A stretch of 64,000 nucleotides of DNA, taken from contig CM035808.1 of assembly GCA_020466095.1 (NCBI GenBank), forward strand, positions 73,401,188 through 73,465,187. Reading direction: 5' to 3'. This DNA is from Chlorops oryzae. Its lineage: Eukaryota > Arthropoda > Insecta > Diptera > Chloropidae. Position numbers and translations under genes: made by a program. A model generated the notes under the pieces. That model saw nothing but the letters and a program-made list of their open reading frames with translations, did no database searches and was not told the origin of the DNA. This document shows, piece by piece, positions 5,077 to 59,377 of the stretch (positions within the stretch are counted from its first letter, which is position 1; each line of letters begins with the position of its first letter).

Positions 5077-5095
5077 CGATGCGTTATTTTGACTT

Positions 5096-6542: not shown

Positions 6543-6662
6543 TTATTCTATTTCAATTTCAGCAGCCAGCGGTCCACCAATTACGCTTGTGGTAGCGCCA
6601 CTGTCTAAAATGGCAAAATATGTCTTACTAAACCTTTCGAGTTGAGCGAAAGCTCTAATATT
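6543..6662 (-). pseudogene. aspartic protease fragment, copy 2
   Basis: Counterpart of 2226-2345, with the same DSGAT motif and the same premature TAA. Confidence 0.78.
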
Positions 6663-6895
6663 ATTATTTTTGTGGACGATGGGCGAAATGATACATTTCG
6701 TAAATTTCTTTACACGATACCAATAGTCTCGTATCCGTCTCGTCGATCTGGGAATTGTTGGATTGCCATTTTCTTTGCTAAAAATTTGTTTTCTAATTTC
6801 ATTATAATGCTTAAGCCTATCGTGATAAGGTCATTGCAGAGAGTGGACTAATCGTACCTCCTCCTTCCTTTCTGTTATTGGTTCTGAGACCTTGG

Positions 6896-16390: not shown

Positions 16391-16696
16391 AATAAATTCA
16401 AAAGAAATTAATAACGAGCATTTCTACCCGTCGCCTCACTTATGCTTATTAACAAAAATATTATAACTCAAATTAAATCTACATTCATAATACTTTTCTG
16501 AAATTCATTTCATTTATATATATATATTTGTTTTTTATTTTTCATTAACACTATCTAGTCTTGGTAGAGGAACTTTGAATATATAGAGGCATTGTGGCTT
16601 CGATTTCAGTGCACCATTGTAATTTTATTTCTTTTCTTTTAAATAAGTATATACGGTTTTTTTTGTTTCATTTTATTTCGGTGTAAATATTTATTT

Positions 16697-18468: not shown

Positions 18469-18800
18469 TGTTGGCGTTGTGAAATTGGCCTAGCAGACTT
18501 CTCGAGCTTGCAACACTTGTTGATTTTGGACTTTCGTTTATTTTCAAATAATACTGTTGACAATGCTGTACTCTAAAAACTTAAATAGGAAAATAAAGAA
18601 TATTTAAATAGTTATTCTTGCGAATTAGGAAATACATACTTTTGGTCCGCTAGCCTCTTTTTGTTCAAATAAAGAAATACAAGTAGTAGTGACATAAAAT
18701 ATAAAGTAAAATAAGAGAAAACAGGTACTCGTACCCAAGCTACTGACTACTTATTTTTAACATGGCTGTGTTTACACTATGATCTGGCTGTGCTGTCAAC
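18469..18800 (-). repeat. Pao 3' LTR
   Basis: Matches 24038-24377 almost base for base. On the plus strand it starts TGTTGGCGTTGTG and ends CTGTCAAC. The first base on the minus strand is A rather than T beside the polypurine tract. AATAAAG-type signals occur inside. Confidence 0.95.
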
Positions 18801-18816
18801 TTTCCACCCCCCGGTA
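18801..18816 (-). promoter_or_regulatory. Pao polypurine tract
   Basis: Minus strand GGGGGGTGGAAAG lies immediately upstream of the 3' LTR and would prime plus-strand DNA. It comes right after the end of the coding region. Confidence 0.8.
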
Positions 18817-18836
18817 TTGCGCTCTTGTCGTAATAC

Positions 18837-21800
18837 CTAATCATCTTCCTTAGTGCAGCCTGATCCGGTGTCTATATCCAAGACTGCAATTTTGTTAGCT
18901 GGACGATGGTATATGCCATTTACAGTACGTACAGTCGCGCTTCTTACTTGGCCATCCTTCGCCTGTTTAGCGTCGATGACAACGCCTTTTGGCCATTGGT
19001 GACGCGGGAGATTAGGATCGACAATTTTTACGATATTTCCCTTCTCGATTGGGTTGACCTTTCCAAACCATTTTGTTCCTCTTGTCATCTGAGGTAAAAC
19101 TTCGGTTAGCCAACGCTTCCAGAACCGGTCAGCCAAGAATTGTACATGCTTCCACGTAGTTCTCACGTACTGATCGCTGTCATCGAACTTACCCACCGGC
19201 TTATGTCCGCTCGATTCACCAAGTAGCAGGTGGTTAGGAGTCAACGCTTCATGTTCCGCTGTTTCTAGCGACACATAAGTCAGTGGTCGGCTATTTATAA
19301 TGCCTTCAACTTCACGAAAAAGGCTTACGAGTTTCTCATCATTTAGCTTGGTGTCAGGTCTTACAATGTGATAGAGCGTTTCCTTAATAGAGCGCACCAT
19401 GCGCTCCCAAGCTCCGCCCATATGTGGGCTAGCCGGCGGAAGAAACTTCCACTTGAAGTGCGGTTCTATAAAAGTCTTCTCCAGTTCACCAAAGTCAATA
19501 TTGTTATATGCTGCCTTTAGCTCCTTTTCAGTCGCACGAAGGTTGGTACCGTTGTCACTATAAATGCATAAAGGTTGTCCCCGAAGATTTATAAAATTGC
19601 GAATGGCCATTATGCATGAGCTGGTCGACAAGCTGTATGCCACCTCCAGGTGTACGGCTCTGCACGAAAGGCAAGTCATAACAACTCCGTAACGTTTCTC
19701 TTGACGCCTGCCCACCGTCACCAGAAGGGGTCCAAAAAAATCAACCCCAACATATGAAAAAGGTCTGGTGAACGGGGAGATACGTTCCACGGGTAGCGAT
19801 GCCATTTCAGGTGGGTTCGGTTTCGCAGATCGCAGCTGGCAAGCGGAACAGTTGTTTCGTACGTTTCGAAGCAGTACACGTAGTCCAGGGATGTAGTATT
19901 GCTTGAATACTTCGTTAATGACAGTTTCGTGGAAAATATGCTTATATTTTCGATGATAAAAATCCACAATCAACTTCGTTATTGCATGATTCCTGGGCAA
20001 AATAATTGGATTCTTGGCGCAATCGTCAATTACAGTGCTCTTTTCAAGACGACTTCTCATTCTGACAACCGAGTCTTTATCTATAAATGGGCTCAGCTTT
20101 CGTAGGACGCTAGACTTGGGTAGAACGACGAACGGGTCGCGCGCAAGGGTACGAATTTCCATGGAGAACACCTCCTTTTGGGCTTTGATATACAAAAATT
20201 TGTAGCTCCATGCTATATCTTCCGGTCCAAGATGAGTTGCGGAGTCAGCATTAGATAAGAACACTTCATTGCTTCGACGCGATTTCGCAGTTTCTTTTAG
20301 TCTTCGAACGTATTTGTATACATAGGCCATACATCGCACCAATCGTTCCCATCTAGAAAATCTCGAAATATCTACTATCCCAGTGGATTCATCTGTATGC
20401 ACCGCAATATCTTCAATTTCCTCGGCGCCTATTCCTTCTGATTCTCTTATTAGCGGTGTCTTCTCTTGCCGCCCGATATTAGGTTTGGTCATGAATGCGG
20501 GTCCTTGAAACCACCGCGAATTTGGATCAAAATTAGGGCTGTTCCATTTGGTAGCTAGGTCAGCCACGTTCTCTTTTGAAGAAACGTAACACCATTCCTC
20601 TGCGCGAGATGATTCTTGTAGCTCCGCAATCCTCAGCGCAACAAATTGCTTAAATCGCCTAGGATCCATATTTAACCAATTCAATACAGTTCTGGAATCA
20701 GTCCAAAATGTCTTTGACGCTGTCTTTATATTATGCGCCTTGAGAATATTTTCCGCATATCGAACACCCAGTACCGCCGCCATCAGTTCCATTCTGGGGA
20801 TAGATATGGGACGTAGCGGAGCCACTTTTGATTTTGAGCCGATTAATGAAACCTCAATTAATAGCCAGTTTCTTATGTGGAAATTTGCACGCGCATGAAT
20901 GGCCTTTACTTGTTTTGCCAACTCTATACACTGCTCTTCAGTATCCACACTGTCCATCATATCGTCAACATAGTGAAATTTAATAATGGACTGTACTGCG
21001 CGAGGAAACTATTTCTCAAACTCCATGGCATTGGTGTTCTTTACGTATTGTGCTATGGATGGCGAGCAGCTGGCGCCGAAACTCATCACTTGCAACACAA
21101 AGACATCAGGCGGCCGGGACTGGTCACAATCTCGCCACATAAATCGCTGCGCTTGCTGATCGTCCGGATGGATGTGCACACGGTGAAACATCTCCGCTAT
21201 ATCACCACAAATTCCTATTTTGCCAATACGGAAATTATATAGTACTTCTAATAACAGGGGCACCAAATCTGGTCCCTTTTCTAGGTAGTCGTTCAGTGAA
21301 ACACCTTGTTCCTTCGCAGCTGCATCCCAAACAATACGTATCTTCTTGGGTTTATTCGGGTTTTGCACAACGAATATGGGTAAATACCACAGACGCTTAT
21401 CATTTTGTGACATTTCCTCCTGAGTAAGTTTTCTTATATAATTCTTTTCCTGCATCTCGGTAATACGCTGTGATACCTGATCCTTCAGATCGGCGTTTTG
21501 TAACAACTTTCGTTCAAAGCACTCTAATCTTCTGAATGCCATGCGCTCATTCTTAGGAAGTTGGATGTTCAAATCCTTCCATAGCAATTTTGCAGTAAAA
21601 TGATCACCTTCTCTGGTAATATTCCTCTCCAGAATCTTTAACTCATGTTGGTTAATGTCACGTTTCTTTGCTATGCCTTCATCATCCAATTTGAAGCTTT
21701 CCAGAACTAGCTTGTGCAGCGCAGAATCACACTCGCACACATGAAGATGTATCATCGCGTATGTGGGTGCATCGATTACTGCAGTCAATTTTCCGTACGC

Positions 21801-23864
21801 TGTCCAACCCAAACGAGTCTTTACTGCTGTCGGCTCATTCAATGCACCTTCTCTAAATTTTAGCGCCATTGAGGCGTTCTTATTGTCGATGCCGATGATC
21901 ATCTGAGGAACAACGTCCACATAGTCAGGTAATGGCAAACCCTTGAGATAAGGATATCTTTCACATATTTCGTTTTTTACCATCGTCTGCTTTGGTAAAT
22001 CAAGCCGTTTTACCGAACGCACGTTCCTCAATAGGACCTTATTAGTAGATCCATGTGGAGATACTCTGATATCAGTTTTAAAGGACTGCTGTTCTTTGCG
22101 GATTGTACCATCCGTCCAACGAAGACATAAATCTGATGCACATCCAGATATATTTAGCTCATTTAATACCTGTTCTTCAATTAGAGTTGGACCTGAGCCG
22201 TCGTCTAAAAAGGCATATATTTTCATTCTTTTCTGGTTGCCATATACTGTTATCGGGACTATTTTGAATAGTACATCTGATGTTTTTACCGCATGAAACC
22301 CAACAGTTTCGGCAGATTTTGATTCGGCAGATTCGCCTTCCTTGTGTTTTTTCGTGCAGCCATTTATTCCACACTCTCTTCGGTTACGACAGAATTTTTT
22401 ATCGTGTTTCATCAGACAGGATCGACACAAGTCCTTTTCTTTAATCGCCTTCCACTTGGCGTCATAATCCATAGCCTTCAGCTCTACACAATTAACCGCT
22501 TTATGTTCATTGTTGCAAATGTAACATTTTACGCTTTCTTTTTTCGTTGAGTCTTCGGCATTCTCTTGCTGGAAACCTACGCGCTGTGGCTTTCGTTTGT
22601 CATTATTTTCCACATCTATTATGTCGATCGTTACGCTGCTTGCCACCTCTGCGAGTTTGTATAACCAATTGCTGAACTCGGATAGGTCTGGGCATGCAAC
22701 CGAACATTTATGTTTACCCCAGTCTAACTTCAATTGTGCGGGTAACTTTTCAGTTAATTCGCTGATAAGCATTGGATTCATCATATGCTCCTGCAAGTTG
22801 GATGCCTGTATGGTGGCTACGAGGCCTCTCACCTCTAGCGCATAAGTAACGAGTGTGTCCAAACGATTGGAATTCACATTTGGCGACGCTCTAATTTTCG
22901 ATATTAACTTAAAGAGCACCTGTTCTGGTCGACCAAATGCCATTTTTAAGGTATTAATTATCTCTGGTACCAACTCTGGAATCAATAGCCGATTTCCCAC
23001 ATACTCCCTAGCTTTTCCCTTAAGGGCACGTTGAAGTCTCAAAAGGTTCTCGTCGTTTGAGAAACCACATAGTCTGGTCGAATTTTCATAGCTGCTTATA
23101 AAGAGCGGCCACTCTTCCGCACTGCCACTAAAAGGTGGCAGCTCTTTCGGGACCACCTGTCGTGCATTTAGTTGCCGTTGAGTAAGTTCATACAACGCAG
23201 AATTCTCAATGTTTAATTGCGTACGATTTTGCGCCGGAAAATATGATGTGTGTTGAGCCCTCATCGGCTGCTCCATGGCTACTGGAACACTATCGTTCCC
23301 AACTGAATCGTTGCATCCCAGATCATCATCAGAATCCGCACCATTACGCGCGCCCGTCTCCTCTACCCGTTCAACTGCATCAGGTCTCATTCCTGTTGAA
23401 CCGTACATTTTCAGTAGTGCATATTTCCTGTTTAAAAATTGCATTTTTAATTTTTCTTCTTCTTCAAGTTTCAACAGTTCAATATCTATGGAACGCATAG
23501 CGCCGTTACCTACAACCTTTTTGTTGGCGCTGATTACCTCATTTATTTCTTCAAAAGACTCGTTTTTATCAGAATTAATTGTAGCTTGCATTGGTGTTTT
23601 AAATTCTTTATAATGATCTATCTTACCACCCACTGCACCGTCACAACCTGAGCACATCCAATTTTTAACAATTTGATTTGCTTTTATTATGCACTCTGTG
23701 TGCGCATGTTGATCGCAGACATCACACGACGTAGTTTCCCCTTCTTTCTCTAGTTTGCAAATACTGCAATAACGCGCTGCGATAAATTCGCCTACTCCGC
23801 TTCGAGTTTTAACCATTTTTACTTCACCTTTATCAGCTTGATTTGTTTCGTCCGTACATATCAT
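18837..23864 (-). pseudogene. Pao Gag-Pol polyprotein with N-terminal PHD finger; one stop, one deletion
   Basis: One minus-strand frame with an ATG at 23864 (a second Met begins MVKTRSG). Residues about 30-80 form a C4HC3 PHD-type finger (CSIC, CDVC, H, C, CSGC). Then come a Pao Gag domain (LPPFSGSAEEWPLF), zinc knuckles (CYICNNEHKAVNC), a protease with DDGSG (YAFLDDGSGPTLIEE) and RT blocks (IRIVWDAA, MSFGASCSPSIAQY). A TAG at 21009-21011 interrupts the RT just before YVDD; the frame then continues to 18837. From IRNW it jumps to SKVAPLRPISIPRMEL, losing perhaps 200 residues of RT end and RNase H start. RNase H (FWTDSRTVLNWL), zinc domain, integrase D, D, E (VGVDFFGP, YSDNGTNL, GGAWERMV) and the DUF5641-like tail are intact. 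Confidence 0.93.
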
Positions 23865-24037
23865 GACCGTTGATTCATCACACCTTTAATCGCGTTCCGC
23901 TTGCGATGTTCTTCACTCCGTCCTTCCTGCCGGCAAAAGTTGTTTTTTTTTCCTCTCTCAAAGATGGCTTCCCAAGATGGCGTCCGTAACGGTTTCGGCT
24001 TTTCTCGAAGCAAATGCCATACAAAATTTTTAGAGAA
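23865..24037 (-). other. Pao leader between 5' LTR and Gag-Pol
   Basis: 173 bases. No TGG primer-binding motif directly follows the LTR; the first TGG on the minus strand is about 18 bases in. I could not assign a tRNA. An upstream frame here is not conserved with any family I know. Confidence 0.6.
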
Positions 24038-24377
24038 TGTTGGCGTTGTGAAATTGGCCTAGCAGACTTCTCGAGTAAAAGCTTGCAACACTTGTTGATT
24101 TTGGACTTTCGTTTATTTTCAAATAATACTGTTGACAATGCTGTACTCTAAAAACTTAAATAGGAAAATAAAGAATATTTAAATAGTTATTCTTGCGAAT
24201 AAGGAAATACATACTTTTGGTCCGCTAGCCTCTTCTTTGTTCAAATTAAGAAATACAAGTAGTAGTGACATAAAATATAAAGTAAAATAAGAGAAAACAG
24301 GTACTCGTACCCAAGCTACTGACTACTTATTTTTAACATGGCTGTGTTTACACTATGATCTGGCTGTGCTGTCAACA
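24038..24377 (-). repeat. Pao 5' LTR
   Basis: On the minus strand it runs TGTTGACAGC to CGCCAACA. Its outer flank is CTAAT on the plus strand. It has 6 extra bases (TAAAAG near 24076) relative to the 3' LTR. Confidence 0.95.
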
Positions 24378-24429: not shown

Positions 24430-25289
24430 AAAGCATTATGAGTATTTTTTATTGCGGTCTTAAATTAATTATTTTCAATACTTGCAGTCTAAATAGTGAA
24501 AAAATTTACTATATTATGAAGATATTTTGTGCATTACTGAAGCATGGTTCAGTACTGATCTCTTAGACGAAAATTTCCTTCTCTCCGGTTTTAATCCCTT
24601 TCGCAATGATTGAACAAATAAACGGGGTGAAAGCGTTGCAATATACTGCAAAGCGTTTCTGCGCGCCTGTGTTATGGATAAACTCCATAATGAGATTGTT
24701 GAATATCTTGACGTGAGTATTTGCAATAATAATTCGAAGCTCTTAATTAACTGTGTTGATAATCCGAGTCGACTAGACTCCTTGACTCTTTTTTTGCTAA
24801 ATCAAGAGACTCCTTTGTTGACTATCACAATGTTGTAGTTGGTGGCGACTTCAAAATTAATATTTTAAATGATTCTCCGAATACATTTTACTTTCTTGAG
24901 CATATAAGTCTTCCCGGTCTGCATGTTGTAAGTAATCAGTTCCCGACGTGATTCTCTCCAAACTCTGAGCAAAACTTGCTAGATATTTTTCTGGTATCTG
25001 ATTCGTAATTTTGCTTGAACTTCGGACAGTGTTCTTTTCTATCTGACAATGATTTAATCTGTGGTGAATTTAATTCAAACTTTCATCAGAATGCCAATAA
25101 AAAAATTATTAGTTTTCGCAATTATAAAGCAATAAACTACAAAGAGATGATTAAAGACCTTGCATCAATAAATTGGACAGACTGTTGGTATCTAAGGGAT
25201 GTCAATGATAAATTAGAGTTTTTGGTTGAACAGATCTCACAAGTGTTCGACGCTCACGTCCCCTTGCGTTCATTTGAAATTCCACACAT
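24430..25289 (+). pseudogene. CR1/Jockey-type ORF2 endonuclease, decayed
   Basis: Plus strand, several frames. ITEAWFSTDLLDENFLLSGF and FNPFRNDR are endonuclease blocks near 24540-24620. After frame changes, SDNDLICGEFNSNFHQN, ISFRNYKAINYKEMIKDL and LEFLVEQISQVFDAHVPLRS run to 25289, where the 333-bp repeat begins. The sequence resembles CR1-like elements of arthropods. With ORF1 at 17178-18307 it forms one element interrupted by the Pao insertion. Confidence 0.75.
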
Positions 25290-25622
25290 TTTATGATTAA
25301 ATAAACTTTTGTATGTTGAATATGGAAAGTTAGTTGAGACAAATAATTTGTGAAAGGTGAATCCGCAGGGAACCACAACGGGGTTATGGGATTGCCTTAC
25401 TTTTGGTCTTAAGATGGTTGGGGGGTAGTGAAGGACGAGGCAATTTCCACCTTAAGATCTTGTTTCAAGCACTCGTTGTACGTACGGAATGTCCGTCCGT
25501 CCGTCAGATATTTTGTTCTTTTCCGTGGTTATGGTCTCTGGCATTAATTTAAGTTGAAAATCAAGCTTCGAATTACACGAGTTTTAAAAATCCTAAATTT
25601 TTATTTACTTTATAATAAGCAA
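25290..25622 (+). repeat. 333-bp repeat inside the CR1-type element
   Basis: Reverse complement of 16056-16390. It replaces most of the reverse transcriptase: the endonuclease ends at its left edge and the RT C-terminus starts just after its right edge. It includes GTCCGTCCGTCCGTC near 25494. Confidence 0.85.
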
Positions 25623-26860: not shown

Positions 26861-27160
26861 TCTCGTGTAAAAGCGGCAAAAGCGACCGTGCGTCGGTATA
26901 TAGATCTTGGCTTGTATAACTGGTCTCGTGTAAACGCGACGAATCGACCGTGCGTCGGTAGGTAAATCTTGGCTTGTATAACTGGTCTCGTGTAAACGCG
27001 GCGAATCGACCGTGCGTCGGTAGGTAAATCTTGGCTTGTACAACTGGTCTCGTGTAAACGCGACGAATCGACCGTGCGTTGGTATATAGATTTTGGCTTG
27101 TACAACTGGTCTCGTGTAAACGCGACGAATCGACCGTGCGTTGGTATATAGATCTTGGCT
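26861..27160. repeat. 62-bp minisatellite, about five units
   Basis: Units start at 26861, 26924, 26986, 27048 and 27110; the first is 63 bp and the rest 62. Each begins TCTCGTGTAAA and contains ATCGACCGTGCGT. All three minus frames are open through it, because the array lacks stops, not because it encodes protein; the period is not a multiple of three. Confidence 0.95.
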
Positions 27161-27229
27161 TTAGAATTTTACTATGGTGATTAAATCCCTGTGGCGAACG
27201 AAAGTTGACCCCAATGGGTCCTCCGGGCA

Positions 27230-27697
27230 CACGTGAGCTTCAACTGCACGTGGTAACTACAAGAATAACCTGAATCGCACGCAAGTTTCAACTGTGCGTG
27301 GAAACGGGTATGAGATCCTGAATTGAATAGATATTTCCTCTGGGCGCACGTGAGTGTCAGCTGCACGTGGTAACTACTAGAATAACCTGGATCGCACGCA
27401 AGTTTCAACTGTGCGTGGAAACGGGTATGAGGTCCTGAATTTAATAGAGCTTTCCTTTGGGCACACGTGAGTTTCAACTGCACGTGGTAACTACTAGAAT
27501 AACCTGAATCGCACGCAAGTTTCAACTGTGCGTGGAAACGGGTATGAGGTCCTGAATTTAATAGATCTTTCCTCTGGGCACACGTGAGTTTCAACTGCAC
27601 GTGGTAACTACTAGAATAACCTGAATCGCACGCAAGTTTCAACTGTGCGTGGAAACGGGTATGAGGTCCTGAATTTAATAGATCTTTCCTCTGGGCA
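27230..27697. repeat. 117-bp minisatellite, four units, E-box rich
   Basis: Units start at 27230, 27347, 27464 and 27581 with exact 117-base spacing. Each has two CACGTG hexamers (CACACGTGAG and CTGCACGTGG; the second unit reads GCGCACGTGAG) and a GCACGCAAGTTTCAACTG block. The period is 39 codons, so a minus-strand frame (27726-27181) stays open with a 39-residue repeat. I treat that as a side effect of the period. Confidence 0.95.
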
Positions 27698-27732
27698 CAC
27701 GAAAGCACGTGAAATAATTCTTGCAAATTTGT

Positions 27733-28026
27733 TTAAGTTATCTCACCACTCTGACTTGTTGCTGACGTCGTCTCTCCGTTCCTCTTCCTGTTTCGTTTGG
27801 TTGGCTTCCTTATTTCTCTTTTTTTTCCCGTCTTGATGATTCGTGCTGCTTGCTTGGGGTTCCTCGTCGTGTTCCCCGCTACTCGTTTCCGTCTTGGTTC
27901 CAAACGTTGGGATCGGTCCGATCGTTTCGGCTGCTCAGGAACAAGTGAAGTCGGTCGTGACTTCGAATTCTTAGCAGAGCGCTTCGCTTCACTTTCCGTT
28001 GTGCTGCCACTCTTGGTCTTCTGCAT
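27733..28026 (-). CDS. basic low-complexity ORF, possible gypsy Gag N-terminus
   Basis: Minus strand, 97 codons from an ATG. It is rich in Lys, Arg, Ser and Thr, beginning MQKTKSGSTTESEAK with runs such as RKPTKRNRKRNGE. No domain is recognised. Several insect gypsy Gags open with a similar M-x-K-T-(K/R)-S-G start, so this may be the start of a Gag truncated by the minisatellites. It could equally be a chance frame. Confidence 0.3.
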   Translation of the reverse strand: MQKTKSGSTTESEAKRSAKNSKSRPTSLVPEQPKRSDRSQRLEPRRKRVAGNTTRNPKQAARIIKTGKKREIRKPTKRNRKRNGETTSATSQSGEIT

Positions 28027-38318: not shown

Positions 38319-39069
38319 ATCATTTCCTGATGCTTAAATATCAACGACTTCTCTTTTAGTGAGCTTAAACATTTTTATAATTTTCGCAAACAACACACCT
38401 ATCAAATTAATAACAGCTTATACGAGTAATAAGCTGCAAAGTCAAAGCTAATTTAATGTGACATATATTCAACCGAAAATATTAACTATATGAGAATTAT
38501 ATGCATTCATAATAAAAATAACTTTAACGAAAGCATAAAGCATTAGCTGACCGCAAATTATACACCAACAGAAGAATAGGAACTCACATTACGCGTTAGC
38601 CCAAACTCACCACGCGAATTTTACAGTTTTTCTCCTTTGTCAAAACGACTTGAATGTTAATTTAACGGCTGAAAAGTTTAGTTTCCGGAACTTTGCGCAC
38701 CTCAGTTTTGTATAAAATTGTTTCAAAATTTTAATAAGTTTAACATTTATTTTGTACATAGTGGAATCTCGGGGAATCTGCTTCTCAAAGGCCCACAATT
38801 AAAAAATTTGGTCTTTTTTTCACTTTTCAGCCCCAAAATTTTTGTTAAACGTGACGCCAATGTTCTAAATTTTATTTTTTCTCAGTTTCGTGTGTATATT
38901 ATAATAAAAAAAGAAAAAAAAATTGGGTCAACAGCCCTTGTCCAAAAAATATTGATCTTTAATTGATGGAGGACCACGAAATTATTTTTACAGGTTTTCA
39001 AATTTAAATAGTCGCTACATTCTCAAAAGTTGTTGCATTTGTTTAATATTAAGGAAATAACCAGCTCTA
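38319..39069. other. Transib 5' region, non-coding
   Basis: AT-rich sequence between the transposase start and the palindromic MITE. GTTTAGTTTCCGGAAC near 38676 resembles GTTTAGTTTCTGGAAC near 30837 in the other arm. No gene is seen; upstream exons cannot be excluded. Confidence 0.5.
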
Positions 39070-39210
39070 TTATGATTGTCGACTACTGATAGAGAATCGA
39101 AAAAGTTCTATCGTCGACTAAAATTTTTCATTTTCTAGTATGTGGAAAATTGAAAATTTCAGTCGACGATAGAAATTTTTCGATTCTCTATCAGTAGTCG
39201 ACAATCATAA
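39070..39210. mobile_element. palindromic MITE with TA target duplication
   Basis: A 141-bp near-perfect palindrome. Both ends begin TTATGATTGTCGACTACTG, arms are about 60 bp with few mismatches, and the centre is near GTATGTGG. TA dinucleotides flank it, as for Tc1/mariner-type insertions. It sits near the right end of the Transib. The RNA would fold into one long hairpin. Confidence 0.88.
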
Positions 39211-39321
39211 TAGGGGTGAACATCTTCAAACATTTCTTAACATATTGGCGTACCCAGTTTTTTCATATCTAAGAAAGGACTTTTGGCCACGAAATAAGGT
39301 CCGCTGGCCCAGTGTGCACTC

Positions 39322-39648: not shown

Positions 39649-39652
39649 GTAA

Positions 39653-40489
39653 TGTTGTGAGTCGTCTTTACTCACAACCCTTCTGCATTGTGTTTTGAGC
39701 TGCTTCTACTCACAACCTTTTCACGTTGACTCTGATCGACAACAAAATAAACAAACGACCCTGAAGTGAAAGCCGACAAAACTGCAACTTCATGGTCAAG
39801 GTCGAAACAACAACAACCGACCAAGACAATTGCGAAGTCGAAGCCAATAACCGCAGCAAGTGATGAAACATGATCAGTCGCAAACGACAAACAGACGAAC
39901 GGCGAAGAGTGAGACCGACGACATGCGAGAACGACGGTCAGCGAGAACGACGATCAGCGAGAACGACGATCAAGAATAACAGCAACGTTTGCATTTTCGG
40001 AAACTTGCGGATATTGAACTAGAGCATAAAAGTGGGTCAACAATAATAAACAACAACAACAGCTAGAACTTCAGCAACGAGAGATTGCGAAATGATCGAT
40101 TTCGAAATAGGATTGCGACACAGCAAAGATGTTCCAGATTATGGAATGGCAGCGAGAAAGTGAAGACGAGACACTTTCTCCCTATATAAGCAAATGATCG
40201 ATATCTGGAAGAGGACTTGCATTTTAGTTTTCAAAGTCTCAATTCGAATCGGCTGTACTCATCAAGCGGCAACAGCGACTAGAAAGTGGACTTTAAGGGT
40301 TAGTTAGTATACTAGGAAGTAATTCGAGTGTAAGAAGGAGTTAAGCTTAGGAATAATTCATGTAAAAATAAAAGGACTATAAATTAATAAAAGAGATTTA
40401 TTGAATTTATTGTTTGTTTTGTTTTCTACATGAAAAAGGGATTCAGTTGTATCTTTCTTCCGGAAAATACACACGGAAACCCTTTAACA
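39653..40489 (+). repeat. 5' LTR of the Ulp1-bearing element
   Basis: TGTTGTGAGTCG to TTTAACA, 837 bp. It contains short GAGAACGACG(A/G)TCAGC tandem repeats near 39927-39970, a TATATAAG box at 40193 and AATAAA at 40367-40372. The order fits U3, R and U5. Confidence 0.95.
40193..40199 (+). promoter_or_regulatory. LTR TATA box
   Basis: CTATATAAGC in the 5' LTR, upstream of the AATAAA at 40367. It probably sets the transcript start about 30 bases downstream. The same box is in the 3' LTR near 47839. Confidence 0.65.
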
Positions 40490-40490
40490 T

Positions 40491-40504
40491 TGGCGCAGCC
40501 GGTA
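40491..40504 (+). promoter_or_regulatory. primer binding site, tRNA-Ser-like
   Basis: TGGCGCAGCCGGTA starts one base after the LTR end. It differs by one base from the TGGCGCAGTCGGTA site used with tRNA-Ser by the 17.6/297 group of gypsy elements. This suggests the mobilising helper belongs to that broad group. Confidence 0.75.
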
Positions 40505-40788
40505 TTCAACTACTTTAGTTGGATGCGAATTTACGTTTTAAAAAATTTCAGAAAAATTACTCAAGCAGTTTGCATAGCTTGGGATTGTAAAGAGAGCTCA
40601 GCCAAAACGGAACTGATTTTCAGTTTTAAACGTGATGCGTCACTACCGGAGAAGTTGAAGCTCGATTTAAACAAAACCAACTTTGAAAGCATTTTGAGTA
40701 TTTTAGTAAAAGTAATATAAAGTCACAACAATAATCTTTGAAATTAGACGAAGAAAAATAAGTCCTTTAATTTAATTACATAAAAAAG

Positions 40789-40824
<36 letters not shown>

Positions 40825-41175
40825 TTTTTAAAGAAACAAAAGTAAGAAGAAGCAGAATCGGACATCAAAATACAAGCAGAGAACTTTGGAGCAGAACATA
40901 TACAAAATGGTGAGTACAATTTGGAACAATATATAGTGCAAAGAGTCCTTGTTGCCAAAATTTTGAATTAATACCCTAAATAAAATAGAATTAAGACATT
41001 GACTTAAGTACAGAGAAATTAAAGTACGGCATGTCGATTTTTGCTTAAGTGTTGAATTACTGAGTGTTGTTTTTGCGTTTCTTTTTGAATTGTTTGTGCA
41101 GTTGGTTTAGATGCAAAGATAAAATTTTGTTGCAATGAAAAAGGAACGGAGGCAATTCGCGTGTAATTGATTCAT
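40505..41175 (+). other. leader of the Ulp1-bearing element
   Basis: Non-coding, with a long A-run at 40787-40820. ATGGTGAGT at 40906 is a good match to a splice donor; a donor at this place could make a subgenomic mRNA for the Ulp1-like ORF. No acceptor could be fixed. Confidence 0.45.
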
Positions 41176-43347
41176 ATGGAGGAAGAATTAGATAAACTGA
41201 GACAAACAATTAAACAATCAGAAACCGATACTGCCGTAGTGTTGGAGGCAGCGAGAGATTTACTAAAAGAAGCAGATTTAGGGCGAGAGGTTTCTCAGCT
41301 AATTAAAGATCAAATAGTGTTAGGCCAATTTTCGAAACTTGGGGAGGCATCCTTTCTTATAGACAAAGTAAGACGTCCATTGAGTGAGCAGAGCGAGACA
41401 AATAAGAAAAAAATCCAACAGTTAGAAGAAACAATAAACTGCCTAAAAAAGGACCGAAAAAGATTAAAAAACCAAATTGACGCGAGCAGGTTATTAATTG
41501 AGGAGTCTGATAAGAAAAACGAGGATCTTAAAAAAGAATTAAGCAAAGCAGCAGGGGAAAAGCTAGCAGACCAGGTTGAGAGAGACAAGGAAACCCTAAG
41601 AGAGCGAGAGGAAGAAATAAGGTGGCTGAAAGAAGAAATAGAAAACTTCAAAAAAGAATTTAGAAAAACACAGAGTCCAAACCCCAGCAGCAACAAAACG
41701 AGTCCAAAACCGCCTCCACCTCCCCCTCCACCACCGTCAACAAGTTCCCCAGGACACAAAAATAAAGAAAATAGTCCAATTAATAACGAGAAAGTAAATA
41801 TTGAGCATACAGATAGTCCAAAAATACTTCTTCAAAATAATCCAACTATTTTAAGACTGATTCCACCCCCCACGAAAAAGACTATTTCAACAGGGGTAAA
41901 CACCGAAAATATATCGAGTAGGGAAACAAATAATCAAACACCAATAGTTCCTACAGTAACAGTCACAATGGCAATTCCACCTCCAGCAGATGAATTAATG
42001 AAGAAAATAGTTAGTTTAGTGCCTTGTTTTTCTGGCGAAAATAAGTTGGAACTAAAATCAGAAGTAGCTAAGTTCGTAACAGGACTGGAACTTCTTAAGA
42101 GCATTTCACAAAATATAGCTCCTAGCGAACTGATAAAATGCGTAAAACAACGACTATCAGGGGAGGCTTTTATAAAATCGAATGAATTAATTTTCAGGAG
42201 CATAGATGAGCTGGGGAATTTCATTAAAAAACAATACCTAAAACAGAGAAGTTTAGAAATCATAAGGTTAGAATTAGAAAGAGCGAAAGAACAGGCAAAT
42301 GAAAAGGCGTCAGCATTTGGGAGAAGGATAGGAGCCTTACTAAAGGAGGCTGAGGAATGGATACGAAGCTCATGGAACGATTCTGAGGCAGTATCCGCTC
42401 TTAGCGAGTACCAAAAAATGGCAAAAAATAAGTTCGTGTTCGGAGTAAAAGACCCGTATATGCAAATCAGGCTAGAAAGCCACAGGGACAAGCCTCTCTC
42501 ATTCTTAATACAGTTAGCAGAAGAATCGGAGGACCTTCAGGCAGAAAATAGAAGACTGTATTCAAGCCAATCCATAAACCAAATAGCGGCTAACCTTCAA
42601 ACAATTACATGTTCTTTTTGCAATATCGAAGGTCATACCCGAGATATTTGCCAGCTCAGGAGAAATACTCCTTATTGCAACATTTGCTTCGAATATGGGC
42701 ATGAGCAAAAAGCAAATTGCGGACGAAAGAATATAGGGCCCAGAATTGACCCCGTGACCTGTACATATTGTAACAAGAGAGGTCATTTAGAACACAATTG
42801 TTTCAGTCGACTAAAAAACCTTTTCTGCAACATATGCAAAACTCATGGCCACGAGGCCAATAAATTTTGTAAACCAGTCTTGAACGTTCAGCGAAACCAG
42901 CAGCTTGGTACAGTAAATATTGACAGGGAATACGGAAAAGGGAATTATAACCCAGCACAAAACTATAATCGAGCGCAAAATTTTAACAATATGAACTATA
43001 ATAATGACTTTAGAACACAAAGTTATAATAAACCCCAAAATTTCAACAATAATAATCCTTTGGAACCCCAGGATAATAGTCAAATTCAAAATTTCAACCC
43101 TTTTAGAACACAAAACAACAATCAATCCTCAAATTATAACAGCAATAGGAATTATAACACGCCTGTTAGGGTGCAGAATTCGAATAATGAAACTAGTGAA
43201 AGTAGTGCAAATAATAGTCATCCAAAAGGTATGCAATGTTTTAAATGCGCAAATTTCGGACATATAGCAAGATATTGTAATAGTGCACCCCAGGAAATGA
43301 GTAGTCAGGGAAACTTCATGAGGCCCGTTAGACCGGGATGCCTTTAG
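41176..43347 (+). CDS. Gag with coiled coil and five zinc knuckles
   Basis: An ATG at 41176 follows an in-frame TAA nine bases earlier, so the start is certain. The protein is 723 residues. About residues 1-160 are a charged coiled coil. A Pro-run linker follows near 180, then a Ser/Asn/Thr-rich stretch. A capsid-like helical domain spans about 275-460 (VPCFSGENKLELKSEVAKFV). Five CCHC knuckles follow: CSFCNIEGHTRDIC, CNICFEYGHEQKANC, CTYCNKRGHLEHNC, CNICKTHGHEANKFC and, after an Asn-rich tract, CFKCANFGHIARYC. Five knuckles is unusually many. The frame is intact, consistent with recent activity and with Gag acting on its own RNA. Confidence 0.9.
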   Translation: MEEELDKLRQTIKQSETDTAVVLEAARDLLKEADLGREVSQLIKDQIVLGQFSKLGEASFLIDKVRRPLSEQSETNKKKIQQLEETINCLKKDRKRLKNQIDASRLLIEESDKKNEDLKKELSKAAGEKLADQVERDKETLREREEEIRWLKEEIENFKKEFRKTQSPNPSSNKTSPKPPPPPPPPPSTSSPGHKNKENSPINNEKVNIEHTDSPKILLQNNPTILRLIPPPTKKTISTGVNTENISSRETNNQTPIVPTVTVTMAIPPPADELMKKIVSLVPCFSGENKLELKSEVAKFVTGLELLKSISQNIAPSELIKCVKQRLSGEAFIKSNELIFRSIDELGNFIKKQYLKQRSLEIIRLELERAKEQANEKASAFGRRIGALLKEAEEWIRSSWNDSEAVSALSEYQKMAKNKFVFGVKDPYMQIRLESHRDKPLSFLIQLAEESEDLQAENRRLYSSQSINQIAANLQTITCSFCNIEGHTRDICQLRRNTPYCNICFEYGHEQKANCGRKNIGPRIDPVTCTYCNKRGHLEHNCFSRLKNLFCNICKTHGHEANKFCKPVLNVQRNQQLGTVNIDREYGKGNYNPAQNYNRAQNFNNMNYNNDFRTQSYNKPQNFNNNNPLEPQDNSQIQNFNPFRTQNNNQSSNYNSNRNYNTPVRVQNSNNETSESSANNSHPKGMQCFKCANFGHIARYCNSAPQEMSSQGNFMRPVRPGCL

Positions 43348-45140
43348 TCAGAGCAAAGTTCAAAGGCCAAATTTAGAGAATGATTTAAAGGAAAAAGAAG
43401 AAGAAATTAATGAAAAATATAAACCACTAGAAAGGAGCAAGGACGAGTTACAAGAAATAGATATAAGTAAAATTTTTTTTTGAGGAGTTGAAGAAAAAGG
43501 ATCTCGAAATAAAGATAAAAAGGATAGATAGCGAAAAGGAAAAATTAAAAAAGAATAAGAAATCCAAAAAGGTTCATTTCGCCGACGATATAGAAAATAA
43601 CTCACAAGAAAGCAATTGCAAGAATAGTTTTGAAAAACAATTAAGCAAAGAGGGGTTAAGGGTCAATAATATCACAAAGGATATCTCCTTCTACAGCGAT
43701 GATAGTCAAGATGTTTTACTACCAATTCTTGGTTCCACCAAAAGCAAGAGGATTTGTACTGCAGAAACAGGAACGGTCCAAGCTTAGGATACAAGGGTAG
43801 GAGCAGTTTGTGAAAAATCGTTATCGGAAGAGGCAGTGGTGCAGAAAAGGGAGCTCACGTTAAAAAGTAAAGAAGAAAAAGTTTTGAAGGGATTTTGTGG
43901 AACTTTAAAAAAGGAAAAGGAAGAACAGATATGTAAAATTGAAATTCTAGATGCGTTTATAGAATTTCCTTGTAAGCAAGCTAGAGTAGGAAAGGTAAAT
44001 TTGTTAATAGATACGGGATCCGATACAAGTCTAATTAAGCAGGAAGCGCTGGCAGAAAACATTAAATTAAATAAACTAGAAACAAGTAGGTTAGTAGGGG
44101 CGTTTGGGGGTACCATAACAAGCACAGGGACAACACAAATAGCGCATGCACACTACCCAGAATTAAAATTCAAATTTCAGGTGCTACCGGAGGATAGCAA
44201 CATTCCTGGGGATGGTATTTTGGGAAGAGATGAGCTATGGTCAAAATCAGTGATAGATGGCATAAACAAGGAGATCTCATTTTTTAATCTTGATAGACAG
44301 ATTGCATCACTGCCACTCATAGTTTTCAATTCTAGCGAAAAGATTTGTATTGCAGAGACAGTCACGATCAAAGCTAGGGAAGCAAAAATGGTGGCCGTAT
44401 GCGCAAAGGGGTTGTCAGGAGAAATAGTGGTTCACAAGAAAGAAATAACGCCTAATGTGTTCGGTAAATATATCTCTTTCTACAACAATGAAAGGCAAGT
44501 TGCATCACTACCATATCTGGTTTCCAATTTTAGCGATAGGATTTGTATTGCAGAGACAGTCACGGTCCAAGCTAAGGAAGCAAGAGTTGTAGCAATTTGT
44601 GCCGAAAAAATGTTAGGAGAGGTAGGAGTACATAAGGAGGAATTTATGCCAGGTCTAATAAGAAAATCGCCTAAGATTAGTGATAGAAAAGGAGTTGTTC
44701 TCATTTCGAACATCAGTGAGGTTGAAGTAAATAGAGAATCAGATAGTGAAGAATATTATAAACTCGACGAGGAAGTCGATAGAAATCGTATTGGTAGTTT
44801 AATGAACAAGAAAGATGATGTTTTATTTATAGAAGAAAATTCAAAGGAAAATTTAAAAGGCAACGCACTGAGTAGGCAACAGAATTCCGCAATAGAGGTA
44901 CCACGTTTGTCCTGGGAGGGAAATCAAGAAAGAGTTATTAGAGAAGTATTCAAGAAGTTCTTTAATACAGTAAAAGCGACCTATATTAGTTTTGTTAAAA
45001 CAGTTTTTCTCATACAAAAAAATTTAGAATGGAAAGGCGTGAACCGCCACATAAAGTCATATATGAGCGATGGTGAAATTTCAGTTTTTAAAACGAATCC
45101 CTTAGACAAAATATTCGCATACAATTTTAAAGTGGCTTAA
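43348..45140 (+). pseudogene. protease region: retroviral aspartic protease with repeated linker; two lesions
   Basis: After the Gag stop another frame continues (VQRPNLENDLKEKEEE). It shifts at the run of nine T near 43471 into the frame that reaches 45140, with one TAG at 43785-43787. The aspartic protease has LLIDTGSDTSLI near 44010 and ILGRDEL near 44220. A segment of about 65 residues, recognisable by ISFY, SLP, ICIAETVT and EARVVAIC, occurs three times: once before the protease (diverged) and twice after it. In gypsy elements the linker after the protease leads into RT, but here the frame ends without any RT block. A TAG or frameshift could be programmed or a defect. Confidence 0.8.
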
Positions 45141-45538
45141 AGATTTTTTGAATGTAAAATAGCAATTGAAAAACACAGATTTCATCACGTAAGGTGAGGT
45201 CTAACCGTTTTTAAACTTAATTATTTGAAATTAAAAGCATTGATAAGCAGAAAATAAAATCAAAAGAATTGAGCAATCAAATTAGTCAATGCATAAGCTC
45301 ATTGAAGCAACGCATTATGACAATTAAAACCAAACCGAAAGACGAAAGGTAAAAAATTAAAAGCATAATAGGACTCTTTCACATTAACCCATTTATATAT
45401 TTTATCTTTAAAGGTACACCAAGGCAGCAAAAAACAAAAAAAAAAAAAAAAAAATAGTAAGTATACAAATAACGAGCATATTTCAACCAAATAACAAACT
45501 TTAATAAAAAAAAAAAAAATAAAAAAAAAAAAATAAAA

Positions 45539-46300
45539 ATGGCTAACGTTCAAATATGCTCGTATAAAATAGGAAAACGGTCCATTCCAATAAAAATACA
45601 GGAGTACGATACACTGATTAACAACCAGTGGTTGACGGACATCCACAGCAACATATTTTTAAATTGGTTGCTCAACAAGCACGAATCAGTGAAAAATAAA
45701 GTAAACATTTTTAACTCTTTTGCTTACGAAGGCATAAAAGCGGCAGCAGAAGCCGACAAGCTCACAGCCGAAATTAGGCTTAAAAATATAGTGAAGAATG
45801 TTGATGTGGAGAATTTAGAAAATTGGGTATTTCCTATATGCGAAAAAACCCACTGGATGCTAATAATTATCAGAAAAAAACAATTATACATCTTAGATTC
45901 ACTAAAGCCCCATAGAACAGCAGAAATAAAGAAAAATATTACAAATTTTTTTAGAATAATAACGGGCACAACTGAACTAGCAATTCACTACCCCGCATGC
46001 CCTCAACAACAAAACCATGTTGATTGTGGAATATTTTTGTTGAGGTTCGCGGAACAATTTTTAATCACTTTGGAACATGAAAGAGAATATGAACCAAACG
46101 AAACGATGTTGGATAAGAACAAATTTAAATTAACTCGAGATTTTTTAGCAAAACAAATAAAAAATTGGGAATTAAAAGAAAAAGCACTATCAGAGAAAAT
46201 CACACAAGAAGAGTTCAGACATTTGTCAAAAATTGCAAAAAGCTTGTGGAAGGGAAAAGATAAAAAGAGGGTAATAAAAAAGCAAGTTAAATTGAATTGA
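45539..46300 (+). CDS. Ulp1/SENP-like cysteine protease (C48 type) in an LTR element
   Basis: ATG at 45539 in good context (AAAATGGC), 253 residues, intact. The C48-type pattern is complete: WLTDIHSNIFLNWLL near 31-46, His105 in KTHWMLIII, Asp120 in LYILDSLK, Gln157 in CPQQQNHVDC as oxyanion Gln, and Cys163 in VDCGIFLLRFAEQF. Cys minus Gln spacing of six residues matches SENP proteases. The C-terminus is Lys-rich. There is no signal peptide or membrane segment, so it is not an envelope. It occupies the position of env in gypsy elements. A role in deSUMOylation, deubiquitination or Gag processing is inference. An adenain-like protease is the alternative, but the motif spacing fits Ulp1 better. 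Confidence 0.85.
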   Translation: MANVQICSYKIGKRSIPIKIQEYDTLINNQWLTDIHSNIFLNWLLNKHESVKNKVNIFNSFAYEGIKAAAEADKLTAEIRLKNIVKNVDVENLENWVFPICEKTHWMLIIIRKKQLYILDSLKPHRTAEIKKNITNFFRIITGTTELAIHYPACPQQQNHVDCGIFLLRFAEQFLITLEHEREYEPNETMLDKNKFKLTRDFLAKQIKNWELKEKALSEKITQEEFRHLSKIAKSLWKGKDKKRVIKKQVKLN

Positions 46301-47280
46301 AAACTTTTTAAAATAACAACAAATAAGAAACAAAAAAACCGCTTCGAAATCTGCCAATAAGAACGAAAATAAGTTATTAATATGTCCACTATATATTTTA
46401 ATTAGTTCTCTAATATTGATACTAGCAAGCATTTTTACGTAAAATATAAATTACGATTCTATTGTAAACAAGAAAGAACATGTTCAATTTTTAAAATTTA
46501 GCAGTAATACAAGGTGGCGGGAAATACTGATTGTAAGGAAGCAAAAATATTATTAAAAAGGATATACAATATGAATAAAGCTAAGACTAGTAAATATTCT
46601 TACTGAAACATAAAAATTAAAACAAAAAGACCAAAATTGTAAAATAAAAAGAGAAAACGAAAAAATATATATTTAGCAATAAGAAAGGTGTCGGAAAATA
46701 ATTATACAAAGTTCCATTAGCGTTTATTTAAGTACGATATAAGATAAATTTAAATAATTGTAAGACTTTAGCAATAATGGAAAACTCTAAGTCGCATCAA
46801 CGAAAAGGAACCTCAGCACCACGAAGAAACAGCAGAATTCGAAACCGATCATGCACCACAACACAATACGCAACAGCAACCGTTTAAATCACCTCACTGT
46901 TCCACTCAACAGCACCAGCAGCAAGTGCACAAGTATAAAACGCACAACAACAATGAACGCAGTGACATCAAGTATCAAATTCATCTTTAAAACATATTCA
47001 GTGCCCAAGCCTATAAGGCATCTTAAATCATCGCATAGAGGGGGAGGGGGCAATCATGTAGTTGCCCAGCCCCAACACAACGAATGACTTAACAACAGCA
47101 GCAGTTTATCAAATCATTTCTGGTCTATTGGTGTTATCTATCTACACTGCACCACAAAAATTTTCAATATCAGAACACCAACGCCGAAGCCGTATGAACA
47201 ATTACCTTGGGAAAAACAAAAGCTCACCAAAACGATCTTATGTACATCTGAGAATGGCTACGTCACGAGGTTCGTGACTT
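46301..47280 (+). other. 3' non-coding region of the Ulp1-bearing element
   Basis: AT-rich, then from about 46779 a Gln/His/Ser/Thr-rich stretch with short frames and stops (for example 46851-47087). It may be the worn tail of a lost gene. No RT, integrase or envelope motif is visible. Confidence 0.55.
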
Positions 47281-47298
47281 CAAGGAAGGGGGGAGGGA
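47281..47298 (+). promoter_or_regulatory. polypurine tract
   Basis: AAGGAAGGGGGGAGGGA directly before the 3' LTR. It is intact and longer than usual, supporting recent reverse transcription. Confidence 0.9.
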
Positions 47299-48135
47299 TG
47301 TTGTGAGTCGTCTTTACTCACAACCCTTCTGCATTGTGTTTTGAGCTGCTTCTACTCACAACCTTTTCACGTTGACTCTGATCGACAACAAAATAAACAA
47401 ACGACCCTGAAGTGAAAGCCGACAAAACTGCAACTTCATGGTCAAGGTCGAAACAACAACAACCGACCAAGACAATTGCGAAGTCGAAGCCAATAACCGC
47501 AGCAAGTGATGAAACATGATCAGTCGCAAACGACAAACAGACGAACGGCGAAGAGTGAGACCGACGACATGCGAGAACGACGGTCAGCGAGAACGACGAT
47601 CAGCGAGAACGACGATCAAGAATAACAGCAACGTTTGCATTTTCGGAAACTTGCGGATATTGAACTAGAGCATAAAAGTGGGTCAACAATAATAAACAAC
47701 AACAACAGCTAGAACTTCAGCAACGAGAGATTGCGAAATGATCGATTTCGAAATAGGATTGCGACACAGCAAAGATGTTCCAGATTATGGAATGGCAGCG
47801 AGAAAGTGAAGACGAGACACTTTCTCCCTATATAAGCAAATGATCGATATCTGGAAGAGGACTTGCATTTTAGTTTTCAAAGTCTCAATTCGAATCGGCT
47901 GTACTCATCAAGCGGCAACAGCGACTAGAATGTGGACTTTAAGGGTTAGTTAGTATACTAGGAAGTAATTCGAGTGTAAGAAGGAGTTAAGCTTAGGAAT
48001 AATTCATGTAAAAATAAAAGGACTATAAATTAATAAAAGAGATTTATTGAATTTATTGTTTGTTTTGTTTTCTACATGAAAAAGGGATTCAGTTGTATCT
48101 TTCTTCCGGAAAATACACACGGAAACCCTTTAACA
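47299..48135 (+). repeat. 3' LTR of the Ulp1-bearing element
   Basis: Offset 7646 from the 5' LTR, same 837-bp length, one substitution noticed. It is followed by the GTAA target duplication. Confidence 0.95.
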
Positions 48136-48404
48136 GTAAATGGGAATGAAGAACTTAATGACGGATCAACAAGGCAAAAACCAAGCGCTTGGAAATCGAA
48201 TTTTAATTTTAAAAATAATAAATACTTCGTTTGAGAGCTGGTGGCGTCAATCCTCTAATCCCAGGATTAGCAGCTGCACTCCGACTTCTTTTGCGGGCTA
48301 CTTCAGAACCAATCTGACTATTAACTTTATTTATTTTAATTAATCTACGCGACCGCACGAAAAAACATGGATTAAAACCGAAAACGCGTTGTCTTTTTTT
48401 GGTC
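48136..48404. other. no gene seen
   Basis: Flank of the LTR element, with a broken frame at 48140-48343 that I do not recognise. Confidence 0.4.
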
Positions 48405-58035: not shown

Positions 58036-58336
58036 TTTTCTACTCTTTCATTTAATATTTCTTACAAGGGTTTCTTACGTCTGACTTACGGTGAAATATG
58101 TCGGCGGCACTCAATCGGGGTCCCTGGATCGATGTATGCGTTCCTCTCGTAATTAATTCTGGCCGAGTGGTTGCGTCCCATCGGGGTCCTTGGTGGTTGC
58201 TGCCGTACCGTAGTGAATTCGACGCTCTTGAATTGCCGTTTGTGGTTCGTTTCTAGTCCTACGTCAACAGGTCAGGGGAACTAGGGATATAAGTTTTGGG
58301 ATATACTACTGCCAATACTACAGTACTACTGACAAT

Positions 58337-59107
58337 GCTACAGCTGTTTAATTTCAAGTATAAATCATTGAAATTAAAAGCGCAGAGACAATCTGGTATT
58401 CAGGCATTTCTCACTGAATTCAATTGTGAAAAACGTGGTGGTGACAGGGTTAAAGCTGTTTAATTTCAAGTATAAATCATTGAAATTAAAAGCGCCGAGA
58501 CAATCTGGTATTCAGGTATTTATCACTGAATCCAATTGTGGAAAACGTGGTGGTGACAGGGTTAAAGCTGTTTCATTTCAAGTATAAATCATTGAAATTT
58601 ACAAGCGCAGAGACAATCTGGTATTCAGGTATTTATCACTGAATCCAATTGTGAAAAAACGTGGTGGTGACAGGGTTAAAGCTGTTTAATTTCAAGTATA
58701 AATGATTGAAATTTAAAAGCGCAGAGACAATCTGGTATTCAGGTATTTATCACTGAATCCAATTGTGAAAAAACGTGGTGGTGACAGGGTTAAAGCTGTT
58801 TAATTTCAAGTATAAATCATTGAAATTTAAAAGCGCAGAGACAATCTGGTATTCAGGTATTTATCACTGAATCCAATTGTGAAAAAACGTGGTGGTGACA
58901 GGGTAAAAGCTGTTTAATTTTAAGTATAAATCATTGAAATTAAAAGCGCAGAGACAATCTGGTACTCAGGTATTTATCACTGAATCCAATTGTGAAAAAC
59001 GTGGTGGTGACAGGGTTAACGCTGTTTAATTTTAAGTATGGATCACTCAAATTAAAAGCGCAGAGACAATCTGGCATTCAGGTATTTATCACTGAATCCA
59101 ATTGTGG
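58337..59107. repeat. ~113-bp satellite, about seven units
   Basis: Units recur every 112-114 bases, with GTTAAAGCTG-type starts at 58449, 58561, 58675, 58789, 58903 and 59015, plus one earlier partial unit. Each carries TTTCAAGTATAAATCATTGA, GCGCAGAGACAATCTGG and GTGGTGGTGACAGGG. Units differ by small indels and substitutions. No coding potential. Confidence 0.95.
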
Positions 59108-59377
59108 GAATAAAGGAGAATTCAAAAGACTTACTTGAATTAAATTCGCTATTACTGAGTCCACTCCGATGTACTTGGCGATGCTGGCACGGCGCGAGTT
59201 GAACACAAACTGCCTTTTCCTTCGCGATGCAGCACCTTTTATAGTTAGTCGGCGGCGCTTGTGTTAGTGGATTTTGTATAGCTAAAAGAGGTTCAAACTG
59301 GTTCCTTGCTTGTGTTGGTGCCTTTCGCATAGTCGAAAGCAGTTCGAACTGGTTTATTGCTGCGTGTGATTGTTGCC

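Follow-up and report, generated by a model that had tools for sequence, protein, structure and literature searches.

What is a gene for a Ulp1/SENP-like cysteine protease doing inside a retrotransposon that has no reverse transcriptase (RT) of its own? The question is raised by a long terminal repeat (LTR) element of the fly Chlorops oryzae, found in a stretch of 64,000 nucleotides that is referred to here as the window (assembly GCA_020466095.1, contig CM035808.1, positions 73,401,188 to 73,465,187 of the forward strand). The original prediction, made from the letters alone, was that of a young, non-autonomous element carrying the protease instead of RT and integrase. The answer reached here is that the protease gene, hereafter Ulp, is an accessory gene found immediately behind env in many of this genome's retrovirus-like LTR elements. 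As for its function, we give a probability of about 0.6 to the reading in which this Ulp1/SENP-family accessory gene encodes a product that likely removes SUMO from host silencing proteins.

The 253-residue protein of the window element is a member of the Ulp1/SENP peptidase family, as had been proposed. It matches PF02902 (Peptidase C48) at 3.4e-14 (53.6 bits, for a cut-off of 20.7), its best match in the PDB is SENP2 (3.8e-9), and the residues H105, D120, Q157 and C163 are all present. An open frame of 253 codons would arise by chance with a probability of about 4e-8, as calculated from the stop density of the element's non-coding parts. Seven Ulp sequences were aligned over their length, namely that of the window, that of a long relative described below (locus L048), and five others at 42–51% identity. 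PF02902 matches all seven (E ≤ 0.001), and a profile search against the PDB gives SENP7 (4e-18) and SENP2 (6e-16) as best matches, with SENP1 also among the best. Every PDB chain matched by sequence at E ≤ 1e-3 belongs to the Ulp/SENP group, and no chain named as a NEDD8 protease came up in the sequence searches (single sequence to E 1, profile to E 0.001). H105, D120, C163, W31, W106 and D34 are identical in the seven proteins, W31 and W106 presumably having roles in the Gly-Gly tunnel, while the oxyanion residue Q157 is kept in six and replaced by Glu in L053. A single-sequence structural model has a mean predicted local distance difference test score of 41.7, too low to rely on; the 28 Foldseek matches that it gives at E ≤ 0.001 are all SENP, Ulp1-like or NEDD8-protease chains. 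Protein database searches with Ulp, Gag and the seven-sequence alignment, together with a scan of viral contigs, found no relatives, and since these collections may hold little insect sequence, such nulls are uninformative as to how widely the gene is spread.

Where, then, does this gene belong? A longer relative with matching LTRs, such as the original prediction had suggested looking for, lies at C3:86852519-86869938 (loci L045, L051 and L048), its LTRs being 97.97 and 98.2% identical to those of the window. Its genes are ordered gag-pro-RT-RNaseH-integrase-tyrosine phosphatase-env-Ulp, and are followed by the same 3′ non-coding stretch as in the window. The idea that Ulp came "instead of" RT and integrase is therefore contradicted by an element that has RT, integrase, phosphatase, Env and Ulp together. 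Ulp is intact in this long copy and is separated from env by a piggyBac-like insertion (named by eye); both gag and pol have disrupted frames, and the integrase-phosphatase end occurs as a repeat. A partial second copy (L044, L045), whose RT piece is 99.9% the same DNA, is found directly upstream. In Pfam this upstream copy matches RT (1.2e-35), RNase H (1.9e-36), H2C2 (2.5e-19), the integrase core (1.2e-16) and the phosphatase (6.3e-76), and the long element itself matches the phosphatase at 6.8e-72 and the Baculovirus F Env (Baculo_F) at 3.5e-6 (26.3 bits, cut-off 24.1). The phosphatase carries WPD and HCSAGINRTG motifs, has receptor-type phosphatases as its best PDB matches, and is fused to the integrase end of Pol, with the WPD and HCxxGxxRTG motifs intact, at L045:322-1989 (C3:86848122-86849789) and at many loci of the genome. 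Env displays a furin-like site, RKRR, and two hydrophobic stretches, one N-terminal and the other from about residue 451. The long copy thus has an Errantivirus-like gene set between matching LTRs: gag, RT, RNase H, integrase and an F-type env. Another gypsy-like element, more diverged from the window family, is present on the minus strand of L050 (1212-6167), with an RT (1e-16) and a tyrosine phosphatase (4e-35).

The same order recurs across the genome (442 Mb, 1044 contigs). Matches were scored for the best 150 of 827 Ulp candidates, the best 84 of 1471 Env candidates and the best 114 of 6352 RT candidates, so that the counts are lower bounds; for the phosphatase, the best 150 of 524 candidates were scored, giving 152 matches, and the counts below are based on the 150 listed. 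The Ulp search returned 32 matches at 69–100% identity, corresponding to the window family with some copies split, and then 118 at 39–55%. Two matches below 60% (C621 and C204) are frameshifted copies of the window family, which leaves 116 diverged matches (39–55% identity), 73 of them without a stop. A same-strand Ulp lies at most 6 kb downstream of 50 of the 84 Env matches, 49 having their own and one sharing that of its neighbour, and the corresponding counts upstream and on the opposite strand are both 0/84. The spacing is 292–821 bp in 48 of the 49, and 3229 bp, across a piggyBac-like insertion, in the last one. For the other 34 Env matches, there is no Ulp among the scored matches. Among the 150 listed phosphatase matches, 58 are followed by an Env within 3 kb (controls 0 and 0), 66 have a Ulp within 8 kb (controls 1 and 2), and 28 are held in open frames of at least 1000 amino acids. 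Phosphatase, env and Ulp are combined in 36 distinct elements, 19 of which have no stop in the matched stretches.

Seen from the polymerase, the picture is the same: downstream of the 114 RT matches, there is a phosphatase within 4 kb in 64, an Env within 7 kb in 46 and a Ulp within 10 kb in 52, with upstream controls of 0, 0 and 1, respectively, and opposite-strand controls of 0 for both phosphatase and Ulp. For 22 loci, the open frame around RT is exactly as long as that around the phosphatase (1035–1677 amino acids), hence the phosphatase is the C-terminal part of Pol. All four genes occur together at 27 RT matches, 13 of them stop-free in every matched stretch. Phosphatase and Ulp without a scored Env are found at 12 RT matches, and in eight of these the space between the two (485–1082 bp) is too short for env; seven of those eight Ulps are stop-free, which indicates that Ulp can outlast env and is not simply tied to it. 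None of the 22 RT matches at 84–85% identity has a scored phosphatase or Ulp, and these possibly form a sister group without either gene.

How did the window element come to keep Ulp and so little else? It is an LTR retrotransposon, recognizable as such by its near-identical LTRs, target-site duplication, primer-binding site and polypurine tract, and it inserted recently, as the original prediction had it. Its features, in window positions, are the following:

39653-48135, + strand: LTR element, with paired LTRs and target duplication
39649..39652, no strand: 5′ target-site duplication GTAA, adjoining the 5′ LTR
39653..40489, + strand: 5′ LTR, 837 bp, 1 mismatch to the 3′ LTR
40491..40504, + strand: primer-binding-site-like TGGCGCAGCCGGTA, just after the 5′ LTR
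40907..40918, + strand: ATG then GTGAGT, candidate splice donor for a subgenomic RNA
41176..43347, + strand: gag, 723 amino acids, open, with five CCHC-like knuckles
43683..44650, + strand: 179-nt module in three diverged copies around the protease (43683-43861, 44274-44452, 44472-44650)
43788..45140, + strand: aspartic protease frame with repeated modules (RVP, 1.2e-5)
44464..45350, + strand: segment specific to the short family, 887 bp, from comparison with long copies
45391..45413, + strand: candidate splice acceptor upstream of Ulp
45539..46300, + strand: Ulp1/SENP-like cysteine protease (Peptidase C48), 253 amino acids, intact
46301..47298, + strand: 3′ non-coding stretch, with the polypurine tract 47282-47298 at its end
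47299..48135, + strand: 3′ LTR, 837 bp, 1 mismatch to the 5′ LTR
48136..48139, no strand: 3′ target-site duplication GTAA, adjoining the 3′ LTR

Gag and Ulp are the only intact genes. Of the coding content first proposed, the open Gag, the C48 protein and the RVP domain stand, but the aspartic protease frame is broken in this copy, where a change of frame and an in-frame stop come between it and gag. RT, RNase H and integrase are indeed missing: in the frames that were scanned, Pfam gave nothing above cut-off for any of the three, and DNA of the RT, integrase-phosphatase and env pieces from the long relative has no match within the window. Devoid of these enzymes and of env, the window copy is not an autonomous Errantivirus-like endogenous retrovirus. 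Nor is it a Ulp1-carrying DNA transposon such as Ginger1 or a Mutator-like element, since the frames scanned gave no transposase match and the element has LTRs and gag instead. Within the protease frame, a hint of the integrase domain H2C2 stayed below cut-off (E 0.18 and 0.085) and was dropped as chance, and tRNA and Rfam scans of the window found nothing. TGGCGCAGCCGGTA may be a tRNA-Ser primer site. In the 3′ non-coding stretch, a second purine tract (47034-47056) followed by TGTAGTTGCCC resembles a relic LTR junction, and an inverted repeat with 74-nt arms is located just upstream of the element (39062-39218).

Ulp may be expressed from a spliced RNA joining the candidate donor to the candidate acceptor. 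Among 16 other loci with the relevant part of the 5′ untranslated region (UTR), 15 show the exact donor motif, and 15 of the 16 with the acceptor region show the exact acceptor motif (L046 and L047 overlap at one site). An RNA spliced from the ATG of the 5′ UTR would be out of the Ulp frame at this acceptor, and the ATG at 45539 would thus be needed.

The window form and the long form part at 44464 and come together again at 45351. Long copies have RT-integrase-phosphatase-env in that place and match the 887 bp between the breakpoints in the module repeat only (76–82%), while the interrupted short copy L046/L047 holds most of the segment at 95–97%. These 887 bp rule out a plain deletion of the long form. 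More likely, the window family arose by reshuffling, as a non-autonomous derivative which kept the 3′ Ulp gene.

This short form is a family. The LTR search scored the best 40 of 375 candidates, all at 96–100% identity, the 38 besides the window's own being at 96–98%. Twenty regions around LTR matches were fetched, and 12 of them contain uninterrupted paired-LTR short copies (L031-L041 and L049). All 12 have the layout LTR-UTR-gag-pro-Ulp-3′ non-coding-LTR, with RT absent and the Ulp region present, which supports a non-autonomous element with a C48 gene. Exact 4-bp target duplications flank 11 of the 12, and nine copies show 0–3 substitutions between their two LTRs, the remaining three showing 8, 12 and 24 (alignment columns with gaps excluded). 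Further short copies, L042/L043 and L046/L047, are broken up by other elements; a BEL-like element (by eye), at L047:1148-7647, sits within a Ulp copy of the window family. Next to a copy with window-type LTRs, L046:3534-4988 has a divergent LTR (70%) and UTR (72–74%) and then gag at 94%, suggestive of a related family or a recombinant. In five other short copies (L031, L033, L037, L040 and L041), pro is uninterrupted over 596–617 amino acids. The Ulp frame, checked in 14 copies (the window, the 12 short copies and the long copy in L048), is intact in three (window, L040 and L048). A one-base insertion near the frame start is common to seven of the 11 broken copies, and the other four are broken otherwise.

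Is the protein nevertheless under selection? Between families, the nonsynonymous divergence (dN) of Ulp is 0.38–0.55, for a synonymous divergence (dS) of 1.8 to saturated. Within the window family, 25 of 75 changes in Ulp are synonymous versus 16.0 expected (P = 0.007), and in gag 52 of 172 versus 38.4 (P = 0.0055, L046 left out). Taken over all pairs, dN/dS is 0.376 for the 14 Ulp copies and 0.54 for the 17 gag copies; a comparison of Ulp among copies had been proposed at the outset. Speed was compared over 49 diverged elements having both RT and Ulp, with L044 as reference for RT, the window for Ulp and L048 for Env and phosphatase. Median identity is 89% for RT, 60% for Env (31 elements), 50% for the phosphatase (36 elements) and 45% for Ulp. 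By this measure, the accessory genes evolve far faster than the polymerase core, which fits a host-facing role.

What could this role be? From its family and active site, SUMO removal would be the most likely activity of Ulp, and its targets may be proteins of PIWI-interacting RNA (piRNA) and heterochromatin silencing, for example in the SUMO-dependent Panx pathway of Drosophila. In Drosophila cells, Panx must carry SUMO to repress transcription and for transposons to be transcriptionally silenced through piRNAs, and a SUMO-Panx fusion is cleaved by endogenous deSUMOylases (PMC13195609). The window element itself is likely a short derivative of such a retrovirus, with the LTRs, gag, a protease remnant and Ulp still in place but without env, the fused phosphatase or any of the RT, RNase H and integrase domains; longer relatives probably supplied the enzymes for its reverse transcription and insertion. 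Several points weigh against a silencing-directed SUMO protease. The contrast in speed is partly expected, the RT query being the conserved RT-RNase H core set against whole accessory proteins, and it could be increased by relaxed constraint or by exchange of genes. At 62 of the 114 RT matches, there is no Ulp among the best 150 of 827 Ulp candidates. Some short copies with the shared frameshift are very young (0 or 1 LTR substitutions, with 0 in L037), so a short element can move without a working Ulp of its own, and the gene is evidently dispensable in cis in this family. NEDD8 and ubiquitin proteases share the Ulp fold, as judged by Foldseek with the low-confidence model. Lastly, yeast Ulp1 tethered at nuclear pores restricts Ty1 transcription, meaning that deSUMOylation can also repress retroelements (PMC8585004).

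Other explanations have to be compared with SUMO removal from host proteins. Adenoviruses and poxviruses mature their virion proteins with related cysteine proteases, and Ulp might likewise mature the element's own Gag, Pol or Env. That it is element-encoded and diverges rapidly would agree with this, as would the resemblance of the low-confidence model to poxvirus core proteases (Foldseek, E about 4e-3 and weaker), but the usual maturation enzyme, the retroviral aspartic protease, is present in the same elements, and the significant PDB sequence matches are confined to Ulp/SENP chains, making such a role unlikely. A deubiquitinase or NEDD8 protease, stabilizing element proteins or blunting an immune signal, would account for the NEDD8-protease chains among the 28 fold matches and for the ubiquitin-type enzymes at weaker E; with SENP7, SENP2 and SENP1 as the best profile matches and NEDD8 proteases missing from the sequence searches within the limits given above, we hold it to be a minor possibility.

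Two further readings concern the history of the gene more than its activity. It seems very improbable that Ulp is a mere passenger, captured once, useless now and decaying along with its elements. The loss of the frame in 11 of the 14 short-family copies examined speaks for decay; yet frames are open and catalytic residues invariant at 42–51% protein identity, with dN well below dS, a comparison which already indicates purifying selection across families, and Ulp is retained in elements without room for env. As for a capture of Ulp by a non-autonomous element, replacing RT and integrase either in a single case or in this family only, the 12 of 12 other uninterrupted short copies with the Ulp region and no RT are what it would lead one to expect, but it can practically be dismissed, contradicted as it is by the long same-LTR element with RT, integrase, env and Ulp and by the position of Ulp after env in diverged relatives.

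By gene content, the closest known systems are the insect endogenous retroviruses of the Errantivirus group of Metaviridae (gypsy, ZAM, 17.6 and others), which likewise have LTRs, 4-bp target duplications, gag and RT-RNaseH-integrase, and a baculovirus F-related Env whose features include a furin-like site and, towards the C-terminus, a hydrophobic stretch. The present elements differ in having a tyrosine phosphatase as the C-terminal end of Pol and, after env, a gene for a C48 protease, neither of which is known to occur in that group. SENP1, SENP2, SENP7 and yeast Ulp1 have the same catalytic domain and His-Asp-Gln-Cys pattern, whereas the present Ulp is encoded by a retroelement, measures 253 residues and lacks their long N-terminus. 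Among the open-licence papers listed, none describes an LTR element with a gene for a C48 protease or a tyrosine phosphatase (subscription papers and Repbase lay outside this scope), and an earlier entry is possible. C48-type (Ulp1) proteases are carried by Ginger1 and Mutator-like DNA transposons (PMC2836005), Cryptons (PMC3212892) and Polintons (PMC10175614), all of them DNA transposons, whereas here the protease is a separate gene of a reverse-transcribing LTR element. In the nematode non-LTR retrotransposons NeSL and Utopia, the Ulp1-like protease is an N-terminal domain (PMC4640811), in contrast to the separate 3′ gene of LTR elements with env. LTR elements of the MDG1 group have accessory open reading frames beyond gag-pol, sORF1 and sORF2 (PMC11952523), but sORF2 is described as a small transmembrane fusogen-like protein encoded upstream of gag and not as an enzyme, which Ulp is. 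Tyrosine phosphatases have been captured by baculoviruses and bracoviruses, those of baculoviruses being most likely of lepidopteran origin (PMC5704228); in these DNA viruses they are free-standing, whereas here the phosphatase lies within a retroelement Pol frame.

The rest of the window holds further repeats. On the minus strand at 18505-24376 lies an element with end repeats about 99% identical and adjoining open frames of 958 and 723 amino acids, the first with DUF1759, which suggests a BEL/Pao element. Around this BEL-like element are 334-nt inverted arms (16058-16391 and 25289-25622), 99% complementary and 8.9 kb apart. Positions 1-7602 form a tandem duplication with a period of about 4316 bp and near-identical frames in both copies, which contain an RT fragment just under the cut-off (1.2e-6). 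Tandem repeats occur at 26880-27803 (periods of 62 and 117 bp) and 58330-59110 (112–114 bp).

A wider picture can be drawn, tentatively and with less confidence than the function of Ulp itself: an insect retrovirus lineage may have acquired two counter-defence enzymes by capture of host genes, a SUMO protease after env directed against piRNA and heterochromatin silencing, and a tyrosine phosphatase that would enter the new cell on Pol. Both would evolve faster than RT, as in arms races, and short satellites would spread with or without their own copy. A phosphatase in the Pol frame would be a second host-signalling enzyme inside a retrovirus. The conserved active site of Ulp, in a protein otherwise diverging quickly, fits a candidate antagonist of SUMO-dependent silencing. 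If this is true, the gene set of insect retroviruses would be widened by Ulp and the phosphatase, and a retrovirus-encoded Ulp1-type enzyme would directly suggest itself as a viral antagonist of piRNA silencing in insects.

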